Below, in pieces: positions 26,022 to 34,702 of a stretch of DNA of 34,702 bases. The notes under the pieces were generated by a model. That model was not told the DNA's origin. It saw only the letters and a list, made by a program, of their open reading frames with translations, and searched no databases. The DNA comes from Bacteroidota bacterium (GTDB lineage Bacteria; Bacteroidota; Bacteroidia; J057; JAJTIE01), in contig JAHBTG010000029.1 in NCBI GenBank assembly GCA_019638695.1, forward strand, positions 1 to 34,702. The letters run 5' to 3'. The translations under genes and the position numbers were made by a program. The number at the start of each line of letters is the position of its first letter. Within the stretch, counting starts at the first letter, position 1.

Positions 26022-27626
26022 TCAGGAGAGTACGGCGGCGGCCTGGGCAGCCTGAATGCCCCTATACTGCGCTTCCTCGAAAATAGAGATACCCGAAACA
26101 TCCGTGTGGGCCAGGTGCAGGCCCTGATGCGGTTGTTTCAACTGCTCCCGTGCGGTGCCCCAGAGATAGCCGGGCGTGGGGGCCACCATGCCATGTCCCC
26201 ATACCCAGATATCCATGCCTGTCAGCAGGCTGCGGATGTCCGGATGCATAGGTTGCAAGTCTTCCAGGATACTGGCTGCCCACTGGCGGTGGCTCCGCCT
26301 AAAGGCTACTGCCCGGGCTTCCTGCGGCGGCAGGTCTGTCAGTGGATAATAGTAGGTGAGGGTTACCTCTTTCCGGTAACCTTGTAACAACTGGTGGTTG
26401 GCCAGTACATACCCTACACCCTTTCCCCGGTAGTTCACATTGTCCCAGTGCATCGGTTCGCCCTGGTGGGCGGGTTCGTGTTTCAGGTGAAGCTGGGCCA
26501 CCACCCAGGGGGTATGCAATAGTTTGGGGACCGCAGGCGCCTCCGGGTAAATGTACGGCAGGGTGTGCAGGGGGCTGGCATAAATAACCTGCCGGCAGCG
26601 ATATCCCTGTGCCTTTTGGGTATCCGGCAAAAAAACGCTGACCTCCCATCCGTGGGTGGTGCGTTGTAGGTTATAGACCAGGCTGCGCACCTGCATATGG
26701 TCTTGTACCCGTGCGGTGAGATACCGGGCTAGGTGGGCATTGCCCATAGGCCAGGTGAGTTCCGCGTCTTCCGGGGCATTGGCCGCCTGCCCGCGGCGAC
26801 CCGCCAGGTAGTGTAGCCCGGCCCAGGTGGAGGTCTGTGCCAGCGTGCTGCCGTAGTCGTCGCGGCAGCAGTAGTCGAGATACCATAGCAGTTCCGGACT
26901 ATGATACCCTGCTTGCTGCAGATATTGCGCCAGGGAGAGGGTATCCAGCGCTTTGGGGCTTTGCGGTGAGGAGAGGTCCAGCGGAATGGCAAAGTGAGGT
27001 GTGCCCTGGCTGTCCCTGGCCTCGCGCAGGGTCTCTACGTGGCTGAAAAAGCGGGCGTATTCCTCCCGGGTTTGTTCCGTAATGCCCCGCATGGGTATCA
27101 AGCCTTTTTGCCAGGTTCCCCGGTACCACAGCCGTTCCTGCGGGGCATGGCACAGGGCCCGTTCGTCAAAAACCGGTAAGCCGCCGGCATAGTCTGTGAT
27201 AAGGCCCATTTCTTCAAGCAATTCCCGTACGTGAACGGACTCCGCATTGGGAACAGGCAGGTAATGTGCTCCCCAGGGGTAGGCAGTGTGTGCGCTATGT
27301 CCTGCCCGGCTGTTCCCTCCGCTCTCTGCCTCCAGTTCCAGCAAACGGAAGGGGATGCCCTTCTTTTCCAGCGCATAGGCGGCGCTTAGGCCGCTGATAC
27401 CTGCACCCACGATGATCACGGGGATCTCTTCCCAGTGTGCGGGCTTCGGGAACTGTCGCTTGCGGAGCAGATGCCCGGCCTGTGCGTCCGGCCCCAGGAG
27501 ATAGCCGGGGATATCCGTTTCCTGCGTTTCCCCGCAGGCGGCCAGCAGGGGCGCTATCCCCAGGGCGGCAGCGGTGTGCAGCCCCCGTTTCAGGAACTGC
27601 CTTCGGCTATACTCAGGGGTTGGCAT
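26022..27626 (-). CDS. Tat-exported FAD-dependent oxidoreductase (amine oxidase-like) with lipobox
   Basis: This 534-aa protein starts at ATG 27626. A TTG seven codons earlier is less likely. The N-terminus carries a twin-arginine motif SRRQFLK (residues 7-13), then a hydrophobic stretch ending in the lipobox LLAAC (Cys31), so it should be folded in the cytosol, exported by Tat and lipid anchored. The FAD/NAD-binding fold begins with VIIVGAGISGLSAAYALE (GAGISG near residue 74), followed by LLELEAESGGNSRAG, the second dinucleotide-site element of flavin amine oxidases. It overlaps the aminopropyltransferase gene by 14 bases. Amine oxidase activity on polyamines is suggested by the context only. 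The substrate is unproven. Confidence 0.88.
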   Translation of the reverse strand: MPTPEYSRRQFLKRGLHTAAALGIAPLLAACGETQETDIPGYLLGPDAQAGHLLRKRQFPKPAHWEEIPVIIVGAGISGLSAAYALEKKGIPFRLLELEAESGGNSRAGHSAHTAYPWGAHYLPVPNAESVHVRELLEEMGLITDYAGGLPVFDERALCHAPQERLWYRGTWQKGLIPMRGITEQTREEYARFFSHVETLREARDSQGTPHFAIPLDLSSPQSPKALDTLSLAQYLQQAGYHSPELLWYLDYCCRDDYGSTLAQTSTWAGLHYLAGRRGQAANAPEDAELTWPMGNAHLARYLTARVQDHMQVRSLVYNLQRTTHGWEVSVFLPDTQKAQGYRCRQVIYASPLHTLPYIYPEAPAVPKLLHTPWVVAQLHLKHEPAHQGEPMHWDNVNYRGKGVGYVLANHQLLQGYRKEVTLTYYYPLTDLPPQEARAVAFRRSHRQWAASILEDLQPMHPDIRSLLTGMDIWVWGHGMVAPTPGYLWGTAREQLKQPHQGLHLAHTDVSGISIFEEAQYRGIQAAQAAAVLS

Positions 27627-29106
27627 AGCGGCTCCATTCTTCTTCAAAATACTGCACCAGCACCTGTGTGCTCAGCCGGTTGACCTCTACCGGCTGGCGC
27701 GCCATATCCGGGGGGAAATTGCACATGGCGACAAAGGTGGATGCTGTGAGGAAACGCAAGTTGGGCGGCAGGTGCCCCGGGCGAGGGGGTTCGTGTCCGG
27801 CCAGTACAAATCCCCATTCCCCAAAAGAGGGTACGTAGGCATGGTAGGGCAGGGTGTGGAAGCCCGCCGCCGCAATGGTGCGTTCTACGCACCAGAAGGC
27901 CTTGGGGGCAAAATAAGGGCTGGTGCTTTGCACCACAAAGACCCCGCCTGGACGCAGGATGCGGTGCAGGCTCTGGTAAAAATGCTGGCTGTAGAGCTTG
28001 GCAATGCTGAAGCTCGTGGGGTCCGGAAAGTCTATGATGATGACATCGTAAGTGGCGGCGGCCGATCTCACCCAGTGAAAGGCATCCGTGTTGACGATAC
28101 GCAGCCTGGGGCTTCCCAGGCTCTCACTGTTAAGCCGTGCCAGTTGCCCTTTGCCGAAAAGGCGGGTCATCTCCGGGTCCAGTTCCACCAGCGTGATGCT
28201 GTCTACGCTGGCATGGCGCAATACCTCCCGCACAGCAAAACCATCCCCTCCGCCCAGGATAAGTACCCGGCGCGGTTGCGGGGTGCTTACCATTGCCGGG
28301 TGCACCAGGCTCTCGTGGTAGCGGTATTCGTCGGCGCTGTCGAACTGCAGGTTGCCGTTCAGAAAGAGGCGGTATCCTTTATTACTATGGGTGAGGACGA
28401 TGCGCTGATAGGGCGTGGTGCGGGCCGTGACCACGTGGTCTGCATAGGCGCTGGCTTCTGCCGCATACTGGATGTCCTGCGCCCAGATGAACCCACCCAG
28501 CAGCAGCAGCCATACCAAAGCCCCGCCGGCATAGTGGCCTGCCAGTCCTTTGAGCTGTCCCCGGAAGTAGTAGATGGTCCACAGGGCCACGGTGGTATTG
28601 AGCAGGCCGAAGAGCAGCCCTGTGCGCAGGATGCCCAGGTGCGGGATCAGCAGCAAAGGGAACAGGATGCTGGCCAGCAGGGCCCCGATATAGTCAAATG
28701 TGAACACATGGGCTACCAGGCTGCTGAAGGGATAGCGGTCTTTGAGAATGCGCATCAGCAGGGGAATCTCCAGCCCTACCAGCGTGCCGGTGAGGAAAAG
28801 AAGCCCGAAGAGCAGGCCCTGGAAGCCTGTGCCTACATTGAACAGTACGAACAGCAATGTGGCGCTGAATCCGCCCACCAGCCCCACCAGTAACTCTACG
28901 CGGATAAAGGTGGCCAGCAGGGCAGTCTGCACATAGCGGGAGAGGAAGCTGCCCACGCCCATGCTGAACAGGTAAACCCCGATCACCAGTGAGAACTGGG
29001 TGATGCTGTCGCCCAGCAGGTAGCTGGCCAGTGTGGCACTCAGCAGCTCATAGACCAGTCCGCAGGTACTGATAACCAGGGCCGATAACAGGAGCAGCCT
29101 GCCCAT
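27613..29106 (-). CDS. membrane-embedded polyamine aminopropyltransferase (spermidine synthase-like)
   Basis: This 497-aa protein has about seven transmembrane helices in residues 1-210, followed by a spermidine synthase-like catalytic domain (~220-497). The polyamine/dcAdoMet signature LNGNLQFDSADEYRYHESL is at 249-267. The nucleotide motif ILGGGDG is at 283-289, VELD at 307-310, and the catalytic-loop region IIIDFPDP at 356-363 takes the place of the canonical DSTDP. Soluble spermidine synthases lack the helices. Membrane versions are known in many bacteria. It should transfer an aminopropyl group from decarboxylated AdoMet, near or within the membrane. No AdoMet decarboxylase gene is adjacent. 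The start follows the DUF350 stop by three bases and the 3' end overlaps the oxidoreductase gene. Confidence 0.92.
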   Translation of the reverse strand: MGRLLLLSALVISTCGLVYELLSATLASYLLGDSITQFSLVIGVYLFSMGVGSFLSRYVQTALLATFIRVELLVGLVGGFSATLLFVLFNVGTGFQGLLFGLLFLTGTLVGLEIPLLMRILKDRYPFSSLVAHVFTFDYIGALLASILFPLLLIPHLGILRTGLLFGLLNTTVALWTIYYFRGQLKGLAGHYAGGALVWLLLLGGFIWAQDIQYAAEASAYADHVVTARTTPYQRIVLTHSNKGYRLFLNGNLQFDSADEYRYHESLVHPAMVSTPQPRRVLILGGGDGFAVREVLRHASVDSITLVELDPEMTRLFGKGQLARLNSESLGSPRLRIVNTDAFHWVRSAAATYDVIIIDFPDPTSFSIAKLYSQHFYQSLHRILRPGGVFVVQSTSPYFAPKAFWCVERTIAAAGFHTLPYHAYVPSFGEWGFVLAGHEPPRPGHLPPNLRFLTASTFVAMCNFPPDMARQPVEVNRLSTQVLVQYFEEEWSRYANP

Positions 29107-29109
29107 GTA

Positions 29110-29319
29110 CTAGCCGCGGATGGCAGAAGCAATGATATGCGCCATGCTCAGCAGGAACATGCCGATGAGGACGGCCACCGCCACATTCTGTTTCTCTGTG
29201 ACCTCATGCCATAGTTTCTCTGGCGTGAGCAGCTCCAGGATGAGGAAGGCCATCACCAGGATGAGCAGGCCCAGCCCGGAGAAGACAAGTGCATTGAGTA
29301 CGTAATCCCAGTGTATCAT
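29110..29319 (-). CDS. DUF350-type small membrane protein, half length
   Basis: This 69-aa protein has two transmembrane helices: ALVFSGLGLLILVMAFLIL (~10-28) and VAVAVLIGMFLLSMAHIIA (~46-64). They are joined by a charged loop ELLTPEKLWHEVTEKQN. The pattern FxxLGLxILVxxFxILELLTP and EKxNxAVAxxxGxFLLxxxxIxxxAI matches the DUF350 repeat, seen in E. coli YjfL, where ~130 aa contain two copies and four helices. This version has only one copy and would have to work as a dimer. It sits between the 50-aa protein and the aminopropyltransferase with gaps of 12 and 3 bases, so it is part of one operon. Confidence 0.85.
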   Translation of the reverse strand: MIHWDYVLNALVFSGLGLLILVMAFLILELLTPEKLWHEVTEKQNVAVAVLIGMFLLSMAHIIASAIRG

Positions 29320-29331
29320 GGTGATATATAG

Positions 29332-29484
29332 TTACTTGTGGTGATAGGCGCCTGCGGCACCCGGTTGCGCATGTGTGGCCTGCGGTCCTGCCAGCAGGTA
29401 CCGGATGATACTGAAGCCACGGGCATTGGTCAGCCAGAAGCCGCCCAGCAGGGCTATGGCGAAGACGATGTAGAACTTACGCAT
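29332..29484 (-). CDS. 50-aa membrane miniprotein in the polyamine-type cluster
   Basis: A short frame begins at ATG 29484, 17 bases after the stop of the membrane DUF4178 gene, and ends TAA 29332-29334, 12 bases before the DUF350 start. The product begins MRKFYIVFAIALLGGFWLTN, giving a positively charged start and one transmembrane helix (~4-20). A GFSIIRYLLAG segment follows, and the Ala/Gly/His-rich tail ends AYHHK. The frame fills an otherwise empty gap within a tightly packed operon, which supports it as real. Homologues were not checked and I do not recognise a family. It is probably a small subunit or anchor of the same membrane system. Confidence 0.7.
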   Translation of the reverse strand: MRKFYIVFAIALLGGFWLTNARGFSIIRYLLAGPQATHAQPGAAGAYHHK

Positions 29485-29501
29485 GGGGGTAGGCAGGTGA
29501 T

Positions 29502-30812
29502 TTAGTCGCCGGAAGCATAGGGGTTATAGTCGCTTTCTGCCCAGCGCCTGCGCTCGAATAACAGCGAGCGTATGCGGTAGACGACAGGCAACAGGCAGAG
29601 GACCAGCACAGCCAGGAAGAAGTTACCATAAGGACTTACGCCGCGCACTACACTGACCTGTAGTCCTTTGGGGCCGTTCTGCGGCATGATCACGAAGATC
29701 TCCAGGTGATAGGTGCCCTGGGGTACGTTGTTGATGAGCGAAGAAGCCCGCTGGCTGCCTTCGCTCCAGCTGCCTTCTGAGTCTACGCCTGAATAATACT
29801 CCATGTTCTCCGCTACCTCGAACGAGGCGCCCGTCTGCTCATTTACCAGGGTATAATAGACCTCTGCCCAGTTATTGCTGAGCCCCGGCATTTCGGTGTT
29901 GATCTCGATATTGTCGGTTTCCCCGGTTACCCCGAAAGGGGCAGAGATATAAGTGGGGAACGAATCTGTGGAAGCGCTTCCCTGTATGGAGAAGCCCGTA
30001 CTCCGCTGGGTAAAGTTGAGCTCACTACGAAATGCCACTTCCTCTTTTGCACGAATGGCAGAGATCGCCTGGAGCACGATGAGAGCCACCACCGCCAGGA
30101 GGCACGTGAGGGTCATGGCACGCACCGTGCGCTTGTGCGGATTGGGCTGCGACGGCGCCACTCCTTTGACGGATGGCAGCTTGAGGTGGGGTATGGTTTT
30201 GCAGGCTGCCCGCAGCTCTGCCCGGCTGATATACCGGCCATGCGTCCAGGCAGTTTCTTCCTTGTTGGATTCTACATTCAGGTTATAGGGCGGGCAGATA
30301 TAATCTGCAAAAGAACCCTTGTCTCCCACCCGGGCCCGCCAGTAGAACTCTCCCAGCACATAGGTAGTCTCATAGTGGCCCTTGTGATAGAGCTTGTAAT
30401 ACTTTTTCTGCCAGGACTGCGTCTGGTTGGTGGGATGCAGCTCAAAGTGCGACGTCAGCGGCTCATTGAGGAGGAAATGCCCTTCATACTGGGACAGCCA
30501 GCGGAACCCGTAGCGGGGGTTGTACAGCAGCAGTTCTTCCCAGCTGTATTTCCATTTCACGTCCTTTTTGATCTGCATCCCGATGATTTCCCACTCATGG
30601 CCGTCGAACTGCACCCGGCTGCCCAGGGGCAGCGTAGGTTTCTGCGCATTCTTTTGCGCTTCAATGACCTTGTACTCCGGCGTGTTGACGTCTATCAGGC
30701 TGTTGCAATACTGGCAGGCCAGGGTGACGGTGTGGCCGGGAGCCCTCAGTTCCAGGCTGCCGCCGCAGTGGGGGCAGCTGAAGGTGCGTGCATATTTGGC
30801 AGAAGTGGTCAT
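29502..30812 (-). CDS. DUF4178 zinc-ribbon membrane protein
   Basis: This 436-aa protein starts with a zinc ribbon: CPHCGG (residues 14-19) and CQYCN (~33-37). The DUF4178 domain follows (~60-200), with LGSRVQFDGHEWEIIGMQIK, SWEELLLYNPRYGFRWLSQY and the Trp/Gly-rich EGHFLLNEPL. Two transmembrane helices lie at ~229-247 (TCLLAVVALIVLQAISAI) and ~402-420 (FFLAVLVLCLLPVVYRI), enclosing an external beta-rich region. DUF4178 proteins occur beside polyamine genes and DUF350, with unproven function. The start lies three bases after the other DUF4178 gene's stop. Having a cytosolic zinc ribbon and an external domain fits an adaptor linking the cytosol to the envelope (inference). Confidence 0.87.
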   Translation of the reverse strand: MTTSAKYARTFSCPHCGGSLELRAPGHTVTLACQYCNSLIDVNTPEYKVIEAQKNAQKPTLPLGSRVQFDGHEWEIIGMQIKKDVKWKYSWEELLLYNPRYGFRWLSQYEGHFLLNEPLTSHFELHPTNQTQSWQKKYYKLYHKGHYETTYVLGEFYWRARVGDKGSFADYICPPYNLNVESNKEETAWTHGRYISRAELRAACKTIPHLKLPSVKGVAPSQPNPHKRTVRAMTLTCLLAVVALIVLQAISAIRAKEEVAFRSELNFTQRSTGFSIQGSASTDSFPTYISAPFGVTGETDNIEINTEMPGLSNNWAEVYYTLVNEQTGASFEVAENMEYYSGVDSEGSWSEGSQRASSLINNVPQGTYHLEIFVIMPQNGPKGLQVSVVRGVSPYGNFFLAVLVLCLLPVVYRIRSLLFERRRWAESDYNPYASGD

Positions 30813-30815
30813 GGC

Positions 30816-31454
30816 TCAGAACTTCCAGCCATGCAGGCTGCGCAGGTTGTGAAGGTTCAGGGAATCGAAATGCACGTACCTGCCCAGGTACAAGCGGGGC
30901 GCTTCTTCGCCTTTGGGGTAATCCAGCGTGGCAAAACGCTGATGCTGCCCGGCCAGGTCTACCACTGTGGCCTGGTCCTCCGGCGCAAGCCGGAACGGTA
31001 ATTCGCCTTCTATACCGGCGTAGGTGATCTTTTTGAAGTCGATAGGGATATACTCAATGCCTGCCAGCTTCTGCCATTTACCCAGCTTCAGCTCGCTGAG
31101 CGGGGGAATAGGCGGGTTATCTTTGGCCGGGAAGCTGAGCATCCAGAAGCCCTGGGCCTCGGCCAGCCAGCCGATGGTGTCATTGGCAAAGTAGAGGTAC
31201 CACTCGTTCCACATGCCGCTGTGGTACTGCACCTTGAGCCTGCCGACCACCTCAAAAGCCTTGCCGTCATACTTGCCCGTGGCGCCCGTTTGCAGCGGGC
31301 TGTTGTCGTCCGGCATATCTGCCACGGTGCCCAGCGCCCGGGTGTAGTCGTCCACCCGCACCAGCATACTGCCGCAATGCGTGCAGACGCAGTTGACCGA
31401 AAAACGGTCTTTGAATCGCACGGGGCCGCCACAGTTAGCACAGGTAGTGGTCAT
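30816..31454 (-). CDS. soluble DUF4178 zinc-ribbon protein
   Basis: This 212-aa protein starts at ATG 31454 (MTTTCANCGGPVRF). An upstream in-frame ATG at 31535 lies in repeat-like DNA and is rejected. The zinc ribbon has CANCGG and CVCTHCGS. The DUF4178 region (~60-190) includes YDGKAFEVVGRLKVQYHSG, WNEWYLYFANDTIGWLAEAQ and GFWMLSFPAK. No membrane helix is seen, so it should be cytosolic and pair with the membrane DUF4178 protein that follows three bases later. It is the first gene of the six-gene leftward cluster. No perfect promoter box was found in the 50 bases before it. Confidence 0.87.
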   Translation of the reverse strand: MTTTCANCGGPVRFKDRFSVNCVCTHCGSMLVRVDDYTRALGTVADMPDDNSPLQTGATGKYDGKAFEVVGRLKVQYHSGMWNEWYLYFANDTIGWLAEAQGFWMLSFPAKDNPPIPPLSELKLGKWQKLAGIEYIPIDFKKITYAGIEGELPFRLAPEDQATVVDLAGQHQRFATLDYPKGEEAPRLYLGRYVHFDSLNLHNLRSLHGWKF

Positions 31455-31530
31455 GCCTGCAAGATACGGAATCTCATTATTGCAGTATATAGGTGGGGCT
31501 ATCCTTTGGTATGCCTGGGGAACCCAAACC

Positions 31531-31591
31531 GTCATGCCGAACTGGTTTCGGCATCTCCCGCACGCGTCATCCTGAGCGCAGCGAAGGATCT
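31531..31591. repeat. dispersed intergenic repeat (GTCATGCCGAA / GTCATCCTGAGC type)
   Basis: Two related modules are present. The first contains ATGCCGAA-CTGGT-TTCGGCAT (8-bp inverted repeat, 31534-31554). The second is the CGTCATCCTGAGC...GAAGGATCT module (31565-31591), with ATCCT/AGGAT ends. This family of non-coding repeats is very common between genes in Bacteroidota and other phyla, as I recall. It often produces spurious ORF translations such as HAELVSAS and VILSAAKDL. Confidence 0.75.
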
Positions 31592-31604
31592 CTGTCCTCC
31601 CTGC

Positions 31605-31623
31605 GGGTGGGGGTGGGGGAGGG
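31605..31623 (+). other. G-quadruplex motif with one-base loops
   Basis: GGG-T-GGGGG-T-GGGGG-A-GGG: four guanine tracts separated by single bases, the most stable class of predicted G-quadruplex. It lies on the plus strand in the non-coding DNA between the XRE gene's terminator and the start of the DUF4178 cluster. Confidence 0.6.
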
Positions 31624-31649
31624 TCTTATGGGCCCCCCTTAAATACAAA

Positions 31650-31668
31650 ACCCGGGGGTCTCCCGGGT
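31650..31668 (-). terminator. terminator after the XRE regulator gene
   Basis: The stem ACCCGGG/CCCGGGT (7 bp, 5-base loop) is followed on the minus strand by TTTTGTATTT. It lies 34 bases past the stop of the leftward regulator gene. Confidence 0.65.
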
Positions 31669-31701
31669 CTTTGTGCTTGTTTGTTGGAGGGGGGCGGGCG
31701 T

Positions 31702-32079
31702 CTACTTTTGGGTGAGGCGCTCGATCAGTTCTTTATAGGTGGCCAGCATTTCTTTGAGGGTAGTGATCTCTTGGTTTTTGGACGCGATCACTTGTAGTGC
31801 AAGTTCCAGGCTCTGGGTCATGGTTTGCGCGCTGTGCTCGGTAATAGTGCCGTGGTTATTATTGATATAAAGAGTAATTCCCTTTTCTTCATATAGAAGG
31901 TCTGCTATATCAATTTCAAGGACCTCTCCCAGCTTCATAAGGCGTTTGATATTGGGGCTGGTCTCACCTCGCTCAATATTGCTGTAGGATGCCTGGCTAA
32001 TCCCTAATTGCTCTGCCACATATTCTTGAGATAGTCCTTTGGCTTCTCTGGCCTGCCGTATTTTCTCTCCAATCATCAT
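31702..32079 (-). CDS. XRE-family transcriptional regulator
   Basis: This 125-aa protein has a Cro/C1-type helix-turn-helix at residues ~5-60: IRQAREAKGLSQEYVAEQLG, then ISQASYSNIERGETSPN and LMKLGEVLEIDIADLL. A short linker and a C-terminal helical coiled-coil (~88-124, LALQVIASKNQEITTLKEML) follow, probably for dimerisation. Two adjacent ATGs (32079, 32076) could start it. A palindromic site lies immediately upstream, suggesting autoregulation and control of the divergent secreted-protein genes. Whether it also controls the DUF4178 cluster downstream is unknown, because a terminator intervenes. No toxin or peptidase partner is adjacent, so it is not an obvious toxin-antitoxin or ImmA/ImmR pair. 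Confidence 0.92.
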   Translation of the reverse strand: MMIGEKIRQAREAKGLSQEYVAEQLGISQASYSNIERGETSPNIKRLMKLGEVLEIDIADLLYEEKGITLYINNNHGTITEHSAQTMTQSLELALQVIASKNQEITTLKEMLATYKELIERLTQK

Positions 32080-32081
32080 TG

Positions 32082-32110
32082 TTATCAGAAATTATCAGCT
32101 AAGCTAATAA
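32082..32110. promoter_or_regulatory. probable XRE operator: palindrome plus an extra half-site
   Basis: TTATCAGCT-A-AGCTAATAA (32092-32110) is a 19-bp palindrome with a single mismatch between its 9-bp half-sites. A further TTATCAG half-site lies at 32082-32088, ten bases away, so spaced by one helix turn. It begins 3 bases upstream of the regulator's ATG. Confidence 0.6.
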
Positions 32111-32187
32111 ACAATTGACACCTATGCAAGTATTTTTACTAAAAATCCGGGGTTAAAGCTGTTTTTTGTATATTGAAGGATATAGTT

Positions 32188-32222
32188 ATAGACTTATGAA
32201 AACACTTATACTTACTTGCTTG
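32188..32222 (+). repeat. 35-bp direct repeat, copy 1
   Basis: This 35-bp block covers the last bases before the ATG and the first nine codons (MKTLILTCL) of the first secreted-protein gene. It is identical to 33127-33161. Confidence 0.9.
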
Positions 32223-33125
32223 TTCTGGATGGGGGGATTGGCGGCTTATGCGCAGCCTACGGAATGGTTTCCTGTGGGGGCGGAGTGGTATTATGGTGCA
32301 GGTGATAATTATAATGGAGGCACGGGTTATTTGTATATGACTGTAGAGAAAGATACAATATATGCAGGTGAGCTTGCCCGGAAGATGTTGAAATACGAGT
32401 TTTATGACGGCCGGGGGATTGTCAAGAGGGATACATTCTATCTCAAGATTATCGGTGATACCGTATGGGTATATCATCCAGATTCTGCAAAATATAACCT
32501 GCTATATAACTTTGATGCACCTATTAATACTCGATATAATGTACCTCCCTATAACTTTTATTTTGGTTCTTGGCCTGATGGGTATAGTACCATCCGGTAT
32601 AGATATAAGGTTGTTGAGCATGGTGTAGAAGAATTAAATCAAGTAATGTGGGATTATATTAAAGTGGAGAACTTTGAAGGGATGGGGTTTTCTGAATATG
32701 CTATAGAGAGGATATATAAGTATATTGGAAACACAGGGGCACCTTTTCCTCAGTTTTATATAATTGATGGAGGGGCAGTGGAGCTATGCCGGTGTTTTAT
32801 AGATGAATCTACATCAACAGAGATTCATTTTTCGGATATGCCCTGTGATTATACGAATGCCACTGTATCTAGAGCATCATACAAGGCATCGGCTGGAAAA
32901 TCTATGAAGTATTATAGACGGCAAGAACAAATCATGGTGACTAATCTGGTTTGGTTGCCTAATAGTAATAATATCTTAAGTGTATTTGATGGAAGTGGAA
33001 AATGTTTGTTGCGTCGGCAGATAAAGAGCGGGCAAGAATCCTATGTTTTACAGGAGAACCTGCTGGCGCCTGGAATATATATTGTCTTGTTTAATGACCA
33101 AAATTTAAAAATACCTGTTCAATAA
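32196..33125 (+). CDS. secreted protein with T9SS-like C-terminal domain, AT-rich copy 1
   Basis: This 309-aa protein starts at ATG 32196 (MKTLILTCLFWMGGLAAYA-Q, signal peptide). A beginning ten codons earlier is unlikely because the repeat block defines the start. The body shows PVGAEWYYG near residue 28, then repeated strand patterns (GDTVWVYHPD, RYRYKVVEHG). The last ~75 residues (LVWLPNSNNILSVFDGSGKC, LLAPGIYIVLFNDQNLKIPV) resemble a type A T9SS sorting domain. It is exported and surface bound by inference. Base composition and codon use are far more AT-rich than upstream genes. The next gene is a paralogue. Confidence 0.75.
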   Translation: MKTLILTCLFWMGGLAAYAQPTEWFPVGAEWYYGAGDNYNGGTGYLYMTVEKDTIYAGELARKMLKYEFYDGRGIVKRDTFYLKIIGDTVWVYHPDSAKYNLLYNFDAPINTRYNVPPYNFYFGSWPDGYSTIRYRYKVVEHGVEELNQVMWDYIKVENFEGMGFSEYAIERIYKYIGNTGAPFPQFYIIDGGAVELCRCFIDESTSTEIHFSDMPCDYTNATVSRASYKASAGKSMKYYRRQEQIMVTNLVWLPNSNNILSVFDGSGKCLLRRQIKSGQESYVLQENLLAPGIYIVLFNDQNLKIPVQ

Positions 33126-33126
33126 A

Positions 33127-33161
33127 ATAGACTTATGAAAACACTTATACTTACTTGCTTG
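33127..33161 (+). repeat. 35-bp direct repeat, copy 2
   Basis: Identical to 32188-32222 at a distance of 939 bp. It again spans the start codon and the beginning of a signal peptide. Confidence 0.9.
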
Positions 33162-34013
33162 CTCTGTGTTACGGGATTAATGGCCAGAGGACAGGATTTT
33201 AATTTTGCGCCAGTAGGGGCGGAATGGGAGTATACTTATTATGAACACCAAATGGGTCCAATGGTAGCGAATTACGTTTCTGTTAAAGATACTATTGTTA
33301 ATACAAGAGCATGTAGGAAGGTACAGAGAAGTGGACAATCTGATTTTTTGATTCTTAATGTAGATCCCGATACAAAGCGAGTTTATCATTATATACCGCA
33401 ACTCGACGAATTTGGTTTATATGCAGACTTTTCCTTAGAAGTGGGAGATACACTCAAGAGACAAGAATATAGTCTTGATTGTATGATGGAGACAAAGATG
33501 CTTAAGATAGATGCTATTATAGAGCAGAATATATTTGGAAAGGACTATAAATTCTTTCAATTCTCAGATGAATTTGTTCATGTCTCTGACTGCGAGAGGT
33601 CTGGGCTTGATGATCAATCAATATTTAGGCTAGCTTGCCCTATTTATTCTTATGTTGGGATGTCAGAACTATATGGATTTGTTGGATTTATTACTCCTAT
33701 GTATAATCCAGAAGGAACTTATGGATTGATTCGATATTCATTCTTAGATGAAGATTTTGTTATTCCTTGTTCAACTGTACAACGGAAGCCTGTTGGGTAT
33801 TCTACGGCTAAGGTATTATATAATAGAGATGAATTAATTATTCAGTCTTTAGACTATTCTAATAAGTTAGAAATTAGGAGTGCCGTTGGGTCATTACTTT
33901 ATAGTGATAGATTCTACGACTCAAAGAAAATTTTAGATCTAGATTTCTTGCCTAATGGGGTATATATAGTGACGGTTAATAATTCTCAAACTAAAATATT
34001 GGTTACAAAATGA
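33135..34013 (+). CDS. secreted protein with T9SS-like C-terminal domain, AT-rich copy 2
   Basis: This 292-aa protein starts at ATG 33135, nine bases after the preceding stop. Its signal peptide MKTLILTCLLCVTGLMARG matches the previous gene's first nine codons exactly. The body has FAPVGAEWEYTYYEHQ, aligning with the preceding protein's PVGAEWYYG. The C-terminus (ELIIQSLDYSNKLEIRSAVG, FLPNGVYIVTVNNSQTKILV) is sorting-domain-like. It is therefore a diverged tandem paralogue of the previous gene. Its stop overlaps the next gene's ATG in ATGA. Like its neighbours it is AT-rich. The role is unknown. Confidence 0.8.
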   Translation: MKTLILTCLLCVTGLMARGQDFNFAPVGAEWEYTYYEHQMGPMVANYVSVKDTIVNTRACRKVQRSGQSDFLILNVDPDTKRVYHYIPQLDEFGLYADFSLEVGDTLKRQEYSLDCMMETKMLKIDAIIEQNIFGKDYKFFQFSDEFVHVSDCERSGLDDQSIFRLACPIYSYVGMSELYGFVGFITPMYNPEGTYGLIRYSFLDEDFVIPCSTVQRKPVGYSTAKVLYNRDELIIQSLDYSNKLEIRSAVGSLLYSDRFYDSKKILDLDFLPNGVYIVTVNNSQTKILVTK

Positions 34014-34702
34014 AGAGCTTAATTCTTTCATATTTATTGTTATTCCCTTTTGTATTATCAGCACAGGTGATTTGTCTATATGATAGTTCTGAGACACTTG
34101 GTGAGGAGCCGCAAGCCAATACCTCATGTGAAGTTTCTCTTAATTATGCACCACTTGTTTCTAGCCACCATCCCAATCTAACAGTAAGAGTTATGGTTCA
34201 TGTCCTGCAGAAGCCTGGCTGCGGCTCTGGAGGAGTATATAGCGATAGTACATGCAAGAATTATTATGATACCGGAAACCCATCTACATCTACCTACCCA
34301 CTTATCTATAACTACTTAGATAGTATAAACGGTATAAATAAACGTCTTAAAGATTTGCATACCCATTCCTACCCTAGTTGGACGTCTTCTGCTCCATATA
34401 TACAGGACTCAAGAATACGGATTTACCTACATGGGATAAAGTATCATCAAACTGAACACTTGGATCCCATAAACCATAATAATATAACTTTTAAGTACGA
34501 TGCAAGTACTATAAATTCTTGTACTGGCAATAACTATCACCCTCAAGGTTTATTCAAGAATATATATGGATTAGTTCAGTTTACGCTTTTCCCGCAGTTC
34601 GTTACAAATGATACTAATCTATCTACCCTTGAAAAAGATAGTTGCTTGCATATATTTCTTTTTGGAACACCTCATCTAATTTCTGCATTTAATACCCTAG
34701 AC
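34010..34702 (+). CDS. secreted protein, N-terminal fragment (possible M43-like peptidase)
   Basis: The frame begins at ATG 34010 (overlapping the previous stop) and is open to the end of the window, so 231 residues are seen and the stop is outside. A signal peptide is present (MKSLILSYLLLFPFVLSA-Q), similar to its neighbours. The pattern TVRVMVHVLQKPGCGSGGVY, the helix YNYLDSINGINKRLKDLH and SRIRIYLHGIKYHQTEH is reminiscent of the pro-region and first strands of T9SS-exported pappalysin (M43) metalloproteases. The HEXXH motif would lie beyond the window, so this is a weak suggestion. Cysteines near 68, 82, 170 and 213 may form disulfides. Confidence 0.65.
   Translation, partial: MKSLILSYLLLFPFVLSAQVICLYDSSETLGEEPQANTSCEVSLNYAPLVSSHHPNLTVRVMVHVLQKPGCGSGGVYSDSTCKNYYDTGNPSTSTYPLIYNYLDSINGINKRLKDLHTHSYPSWTSSAPYIQDSRIRIYLHGIKYHQTEHLDPINHNNITFKYDASTINSCTGNNYHPQGLFKNIYGLVQFTLFPQFVTNDTNLSTLEKDSCLHIFLFGTPHLISAFNTLD

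Follow-up and report, generated by a model that had tools for sequence, protein, structure and literature searches.

The window analysed here, a stretch of 34,702 nucleotides, is the entire contig C69 of a 2.9-Mb source genome that was assembled in 146 contigs and is 96% complete. Its end is occupied by three genes on the plus strand: w1 (32196..33125), whose translation and tail match predict an exported protein of 309 aa with a T9SS-like tail; w2 (33135..34013), which likewise encodes a predicted exported protein with such a tail, of 292 aa; and w3 (34010..34702), of which 231 aa are seen and which has a signal-peptide-like start. The stop codon of w2 (34011-34013) overlaps the start of w3 at 34010 in an ATGA motif, as the initial annotation of this DNA had described, and w3 is incomplete because the window is all of the contig and the contig end cuts the gene. 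The end of the contig had no match at any other place in the genome. The GC content, about 0.50 to 0.61 along the window as far as 32 kb, was 0.548 at 31001-32000 and then 0.384 and 0.348 in successive kilobases, which bears out the sharp shift from GC-rich (about 0.55) to AT-rich (0.35 to 0.38) DNA that had been placed at about 32.1 kb. Divergent from w1, on the minus strand (31702..32079), lies a gene for a Cro/CI-type HTH regulator of 125 aa (PF01381, 67.6 bits against a cut-off of 23); the intergenic region between the two genes (32080..32195) is, from its position, a predicted and probable divergent promoter region. Adjoining the AT-rich island, the minus strand at 27613-31535 encodes a spermine-synthase-like protein, a small membrane-like ORF, and two DUF4178 proteins.

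The adjacent genes w1 and w2 share a block of 35 bp, an exact direct repeat on the plus strand that extends from -8 to +27 of w1 (32188..32222) and from -8 to +27 of w2 (33127..33161), with the repeat still 88% identical over 52 bp. The regions of w1 and w2 have no exact match longer than this, and first-order resamplings (n=60) reached at most 16 bp. The bodies have diverged strongly, the longest exact match between them being 9 bp, and on both points the initial annotation was right. Its further statement that the block covers the start and the signal peptide holds for the start codon, which the block passes from -8, and for about half of the signal peptide, since only the first nine codons are included. 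Between w1 and w2, the tails show no greater likeness than the middles (difference, 0.03); within the window, the part that is apparently homogenised comprises the starts only.

We then examined the family to which these proteins belong. A body profile run against 395 genomes of the class (E<=1e-6) found members in 119 of them; the window genome has four only, and the one other genome of its taxonomic family had no member of the gene family at E<=1e-4. A related-loci search with w2 found no relative. By eye, the translations show at their N termini a hydrophobic start ending in an A-x-A-Q-like or similar motif. In the four members of the window genome, namely, w1, w2, and genes A and B of a second locus on contig C66, the tails scored 14.9, 18.2, 19.6, and 28.9 bits, respectively, against PF18962 (cut-off, 27), with only B above the cut-off; against TIGR04183 (cut-off, 23), w1 and w2 scored 19.9 and 17.4 bits. 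The genome contains other T9SS cargo, with 74 PF18962 matches at E<=0.001. A structure model built from the w1 and w2 sequences alone had a pLDDT of 34; that of a relative from genus g25 (pLDDT 87) showed an antiparallel beta body that leads into a tail matching solved T9SS tails, the modelled tail superposing on the mirolase CTD with a Z score of 12.3 and 1.2 A over 74 residues. The fold-match list for this relative was filled by the tail, and the beta-rich body had no Pfam or NCBIfam family above the cut-off. As in T9SS type A cargo (PF18962/TIGR04183), a C-terminal Ig-like sorting domain is thus predicted in a family member; unlike such cargo, w1 and w2 have tails that fall below the curated cut-offs, and the body belongs to no family that passes them. 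The earlier description of the products as surface proteins is reasonable in view of the visible tail of T9SS type, although those of w1 and w2 stay below the curated cut-offs.

The 35-bp block is not unique to the pair in which it had been noted. A search of the genome with a 26-mer of the block, allowing up to three mismatches, returned three places: w1, w2, and a third copy on contig C66. At the latter locus, an HTH gene is divergent from genes A and B, each of about 300 aa, and these are followed by a gene of 1,052 aa that overlaps B by ATGA. Judged from their sequences, the C66 locus and the window have the same layout, with a divergent HTH gene, two T9SS cargo-like genes, and an ATGA-overlapping gene, and the gene cluster is AT-rich at both. 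The two HTH proteins are 42% identical across 106 aa, and between -40 and -20 the upstream region of w1 has 15 of 20 bases in common with that of gene A. That HTH genes of this type generally accompany cargo genes was considered and rejected: of 11 matches to the regulator, we inspected the neighbourhoods of three further paralogues (on C46, C24, and C135), and none lay beside a family member, nor did the family scan list any there. The 1,052-aa gene encodes a Peptidase_M43 (PF05572, 29.4 bits against a cut-off of 23) with the zinc motif HEVGH (HExxH). Its third-position GC (L004:5682-8840) is 0.16 to 0.48 in the first 350 codons, which form the peptidase part, and 0.66 to 0.92 thereafter, and an incoming AT-rich part may have become fused here to a GC-rich 3' part that was already resident. 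The position of w3 matches that of the M43 gene; a comparison of the two proteins gave a blastp E value of 0.37 and an hhalign probability of 4%, and the contig end cuts w3 before the HExxH region. Contig C130, which is matched by the C66 peptidase, was rejected as a continuation of w3, as it carries a separate, GC-rich M43-like gene.

The AT-richness and the absence of the gene family from the one other genome of the same taxonomic family fit an acquisition of the cluster from elsewhere, without proving it. Two weak tests of a mobile origin were negative: a tblastn search of plasmids with w2, the one protein tried, and a search of viral contigs with the block, for exact matches only, gave no match.

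A comparison of the four genes revealed that their starts and bodies are related in different ways. The exact runs through the ATG were 35 bp between w1 and w2, 34 bp between w1 and B, and 39 bp between w2 and B; with gene A, each of these three genes had an exact run of only 8 bp. The body of w2 is nevertheless nearest to gene A within the genome (117 bits, versus 34 for B and 30 for w1), and w1, itself excluded, is nearest to gene B (63 bits), so the order of the two gene types is reversed between the loci. The identity of w2 to gene B continues to 33166 (+32), the end of the 39-bp run and of approximately the first 10 codons. From about +60, w2 is A-like, with 17 of 20 bases as in gene A at +60 to +80. 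The end of the run and the A match place a mosaic junction in w2, with a B-type start before it and an A-type body after it, at 33167..33194 (plus strand), a combination that we take to reflect gene conversion at its 5' end. The likeness of w1 and B extends to about +95: nucleotide identity is 0.97 over codons 1 to 10 and 0.90 over the 23 that follow, beyond which it falls to 0.39. With M and W excluded, identical residues were encoded by the same codon at 8/8 positions (w1/w2) and 9/9 positions (w2/B) in the starts; in the bodies, the corresponding counts were 32/61 and 33/62. Since synonymous codons are kept in the starts and not in the bodies, the starts are younger than the bodies, a difference for which selection at the protein level does not account.

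To see the family in other genomes, we compared tandem sets chosen by eye among the family matches listed. The comparison covered 47 loci, from which 78 genes were kept; genes with no ATG near the profile start or shorter than 540 nt were dropped, as were fetched loci such as L018-L039, L061, and L071-L081, along with L101, which is the same place as L106. Loci L120 and L121 contributed one gene each and hence no pair, and the further named family loci held no additional tandem set. For the first 20 codons, nucleotide identity was 0.648 in the tandem pairs (n=37, from 26 loci, pairs inside one locus not being independent) and 0.439 in the between-genome pairs (n=2,953); the corresponding values were 0.479 and 0.418 for the middle and 0.657 and 0.415 for the last 70 codons. 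The start exceeded the middle by more than 0.2 at 10 of 26 tandem loci, versus 98 of 2,822 between-genome pairs, and the tail did so at 9 of 26 loci, versus 104 of 2,837 pairs. No start effect was seen at 16 of the 26 loci. For 15 of the 57 tandem genes, the start was best matched within the own genome and the body elsewhere, and the reverse held for 3; for 7 genes both best matches were in the own genome, and for 32 neither was.

Three arrays differed in what was shared. The clearest case of shared ends is L105 (G225:C5:21500-27500), where the signal peptide and the tail hardly vary among four tandem members whose middles differ. The pair at L088 (G357:C109:2500-8000) has an exact upstream stretch of 54 bp, and its 33 start codons are 0.95 to 0.97 identical, over bodies that are 0.49 identical; of the two genes, the first is longer and is a two-domain fusion. 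The opposite pattern was found at L086 (G100:C46:63500-69500), with an exact stretch of 95 bp in the 3' part and a start that is not shared.

The arrays of g25 allowed a resampling against a null in which genes were drawn from different g25 genomes (2000 resamples, 19 loci). The start effect was present at 6/19 loci, against a resampled mean of 1.99 (6 was reached in 17/2000 resamples), and the tail effect was present at 7/19, against a mean of 2.45 (7 was reached in 6/2000). Both ends were affected in one pair at 4/19 loci, a weak excess over the mean of 1.39 (93/2000 resamples reached 4). Among the between-genome pairs of g25, 45/997 had a start exceeding the middle by more than 0.2; since some such pairs thus combine a high start with a low middle, conserved signal peptides explain a part of the effect.

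We also asked which part of the genes moves, using site patterns in three author-chosen quartets from G225, G072, and G430, all of which are given here, with codons 0 to 25 as the start, 25 to 225 as the middle, and those beyond 225 as the tail. The sites grouping by genome and by orthologue numbered, respectively, 1 and 3 in the start, 4 and 149 in the middle, and 6 and 1 in the tail of quartet 1 (G225/G072); 5 and 0, 18 and 47, and 7 and 1 in quartet 2 (G225/G430); and 6 and 0, 6 and 86, and 9 and 3 in quartet 3 (G225/G072). By these patterns, the middles go with orthology, whereas the grouping by genome holds for the tails in all three quartets and for the starts in two. In the g25 arrays, which are those that the comparison of ends by genome covered, one segment thus goes by genome and another by orthologue, as in concerted evolution.

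Short-tract gene conversion at the ends of old paralogues is, in our judgement, the best explanation of these observations and probably the right one, the process itself, like the identity of the donor copy, being something that we infer from the patterns. The initial annotation had suggested recombination-preserved starts or gene conversion, and the third copy of the block, the mosaic w2, and the recurrence in other tandem sets speak for it. In this scheme, w1 and w2 would be paralogues of long standing and strong divergence within a T9SS cargo family of the Bacteroidota. The operon-like, AT-rich cluster in which they lie, beside an HTH regulator, is present twice in the genome. Short 5' stretches would have been copied recently between the paralogues by homologous recombination, making the starts alike; the copied tract would measure about 39 bp in w2 and about 100 bp in the stretch common to w1 and gene B. 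The bodies would be too diverged for recombination, each keeping its own history. In other members of the family the same is seen at the start and, often, at the T9SS tail as well, the two regions needed for export, and the shared export signals would presumably keep the ends similar enough for recombination to pair them. Several points count against conversion: the 16 of 26 tandem loci with no start effect, the quartet in which the start does not favour its own genome, the weak excess of pairs alike at both ends, the between-genome pairs with a high start and a low middle, and the shortness of the window's own tracts, 35 to 39 bp.

The initial annotation had also proposed a cassette-like diversification, in which a start carrying the promoter or export signal stays fixed and bodies are swapped behind it, diversifying the exported protein. 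The roughly 100 bp shared by w1 and B ahead of bodies at 0.39 identity, the reversed order of the A-type and B-type genes between the loci, and the AT-rich bodies inside a GC-rich genome would all suit such an exchange. Yet no silent cassettes were found, four family members being all that the whole genome holds, and the bodies are distant relatives that align along their length rather than unrelated sequences. In g25, moreover, where the middles persist as stable orthologues, the parts that move are the ends, which tend to track the genome. Body swapping behind a fixed start is possible for the window, but in g25, where it can be tested, it is unsupported, and we regard it as unlikely. More improbable still is selection acting on the start as DNA or mRNA (for translation initiation, a regulator site, or RNA structure) that keeps the 35 bp without recombination: the block does span the start codon and take in 7 to 8 untranslated bases, but it is missing from gene A, a member of the same family (8 bp exact), the identity of w1 and B runs well beyond it, and between genomes synonymous codons are kept no better in the start (0.330) than in the middle (0.370). 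An assembly artefact, with short repeats at contig ends causing wrong joins in a metagenome assembly, has the slimmest chance, for although the genome is in 146 contigs, both loci lie at contig ends, and the copies share nothing upstream of -8, which would allow upstream joins to be scrambled at the repeat, the same pattern occurs in other assemblies, and a wrong join would affect only the sequence upstream of the block, because each block reads through into a different body.

Gene conversion of the ends might be general. That tandem arrays of small T9SS cargo genes across the Bacteroidota have ends kept alike by conversion, with middles that diverge or are exchanged behind them, is a tentative proposal to which we give somewhat less than an even chance. 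If it is true, each species would have its own signal pair on varied exported proteins. The present arrays would offer a case beyond the well-studied pathogens in which export signals appear concerted within a genome and bodies evolve apart. If general, this would bear on how Bacteroidota build large sets of T9SS cargo; the starts and tails of such genes would mislead orthology calls in annotation, and short identical starts could confuse assembly.

A literature search, with most subscription papers outside its scope, found no publication describing such concerted change at the ends of T9SS cargo genes; known examples of gene ends that evolve in concert come from Helicobacter pylori. In a review and primary data on babA/babB and homA/homB (PMC3960876, PMC2795765), one segment, the 3' end, evolves in concert by gene conversion, and the 5' segment of homA/homB diverges. 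The likeness to our arrays is that paralogues of the same genome are alike in one segment, with other segments following orthology. The concerted segment is 3' in H. pylori, however, whereas the likeness lies at the 5' end only in the window genes and at both ends in other arrays of the family; the protein family and the secretion route are also different, and conversion was demonstrated there, whereas we infer it here. For T9SS-exported surface proteins of Porphyromonas gingivalis, PMC5266723 describes domain rearrangement and allelic exchange. These proteins resemble the present ones in combining T9SS export with recombination between genes, but in P. gingivalis whole adhesin domains or alleles are exchanged, whereas in the present family the resemblance lies in short ends, with differing middles.
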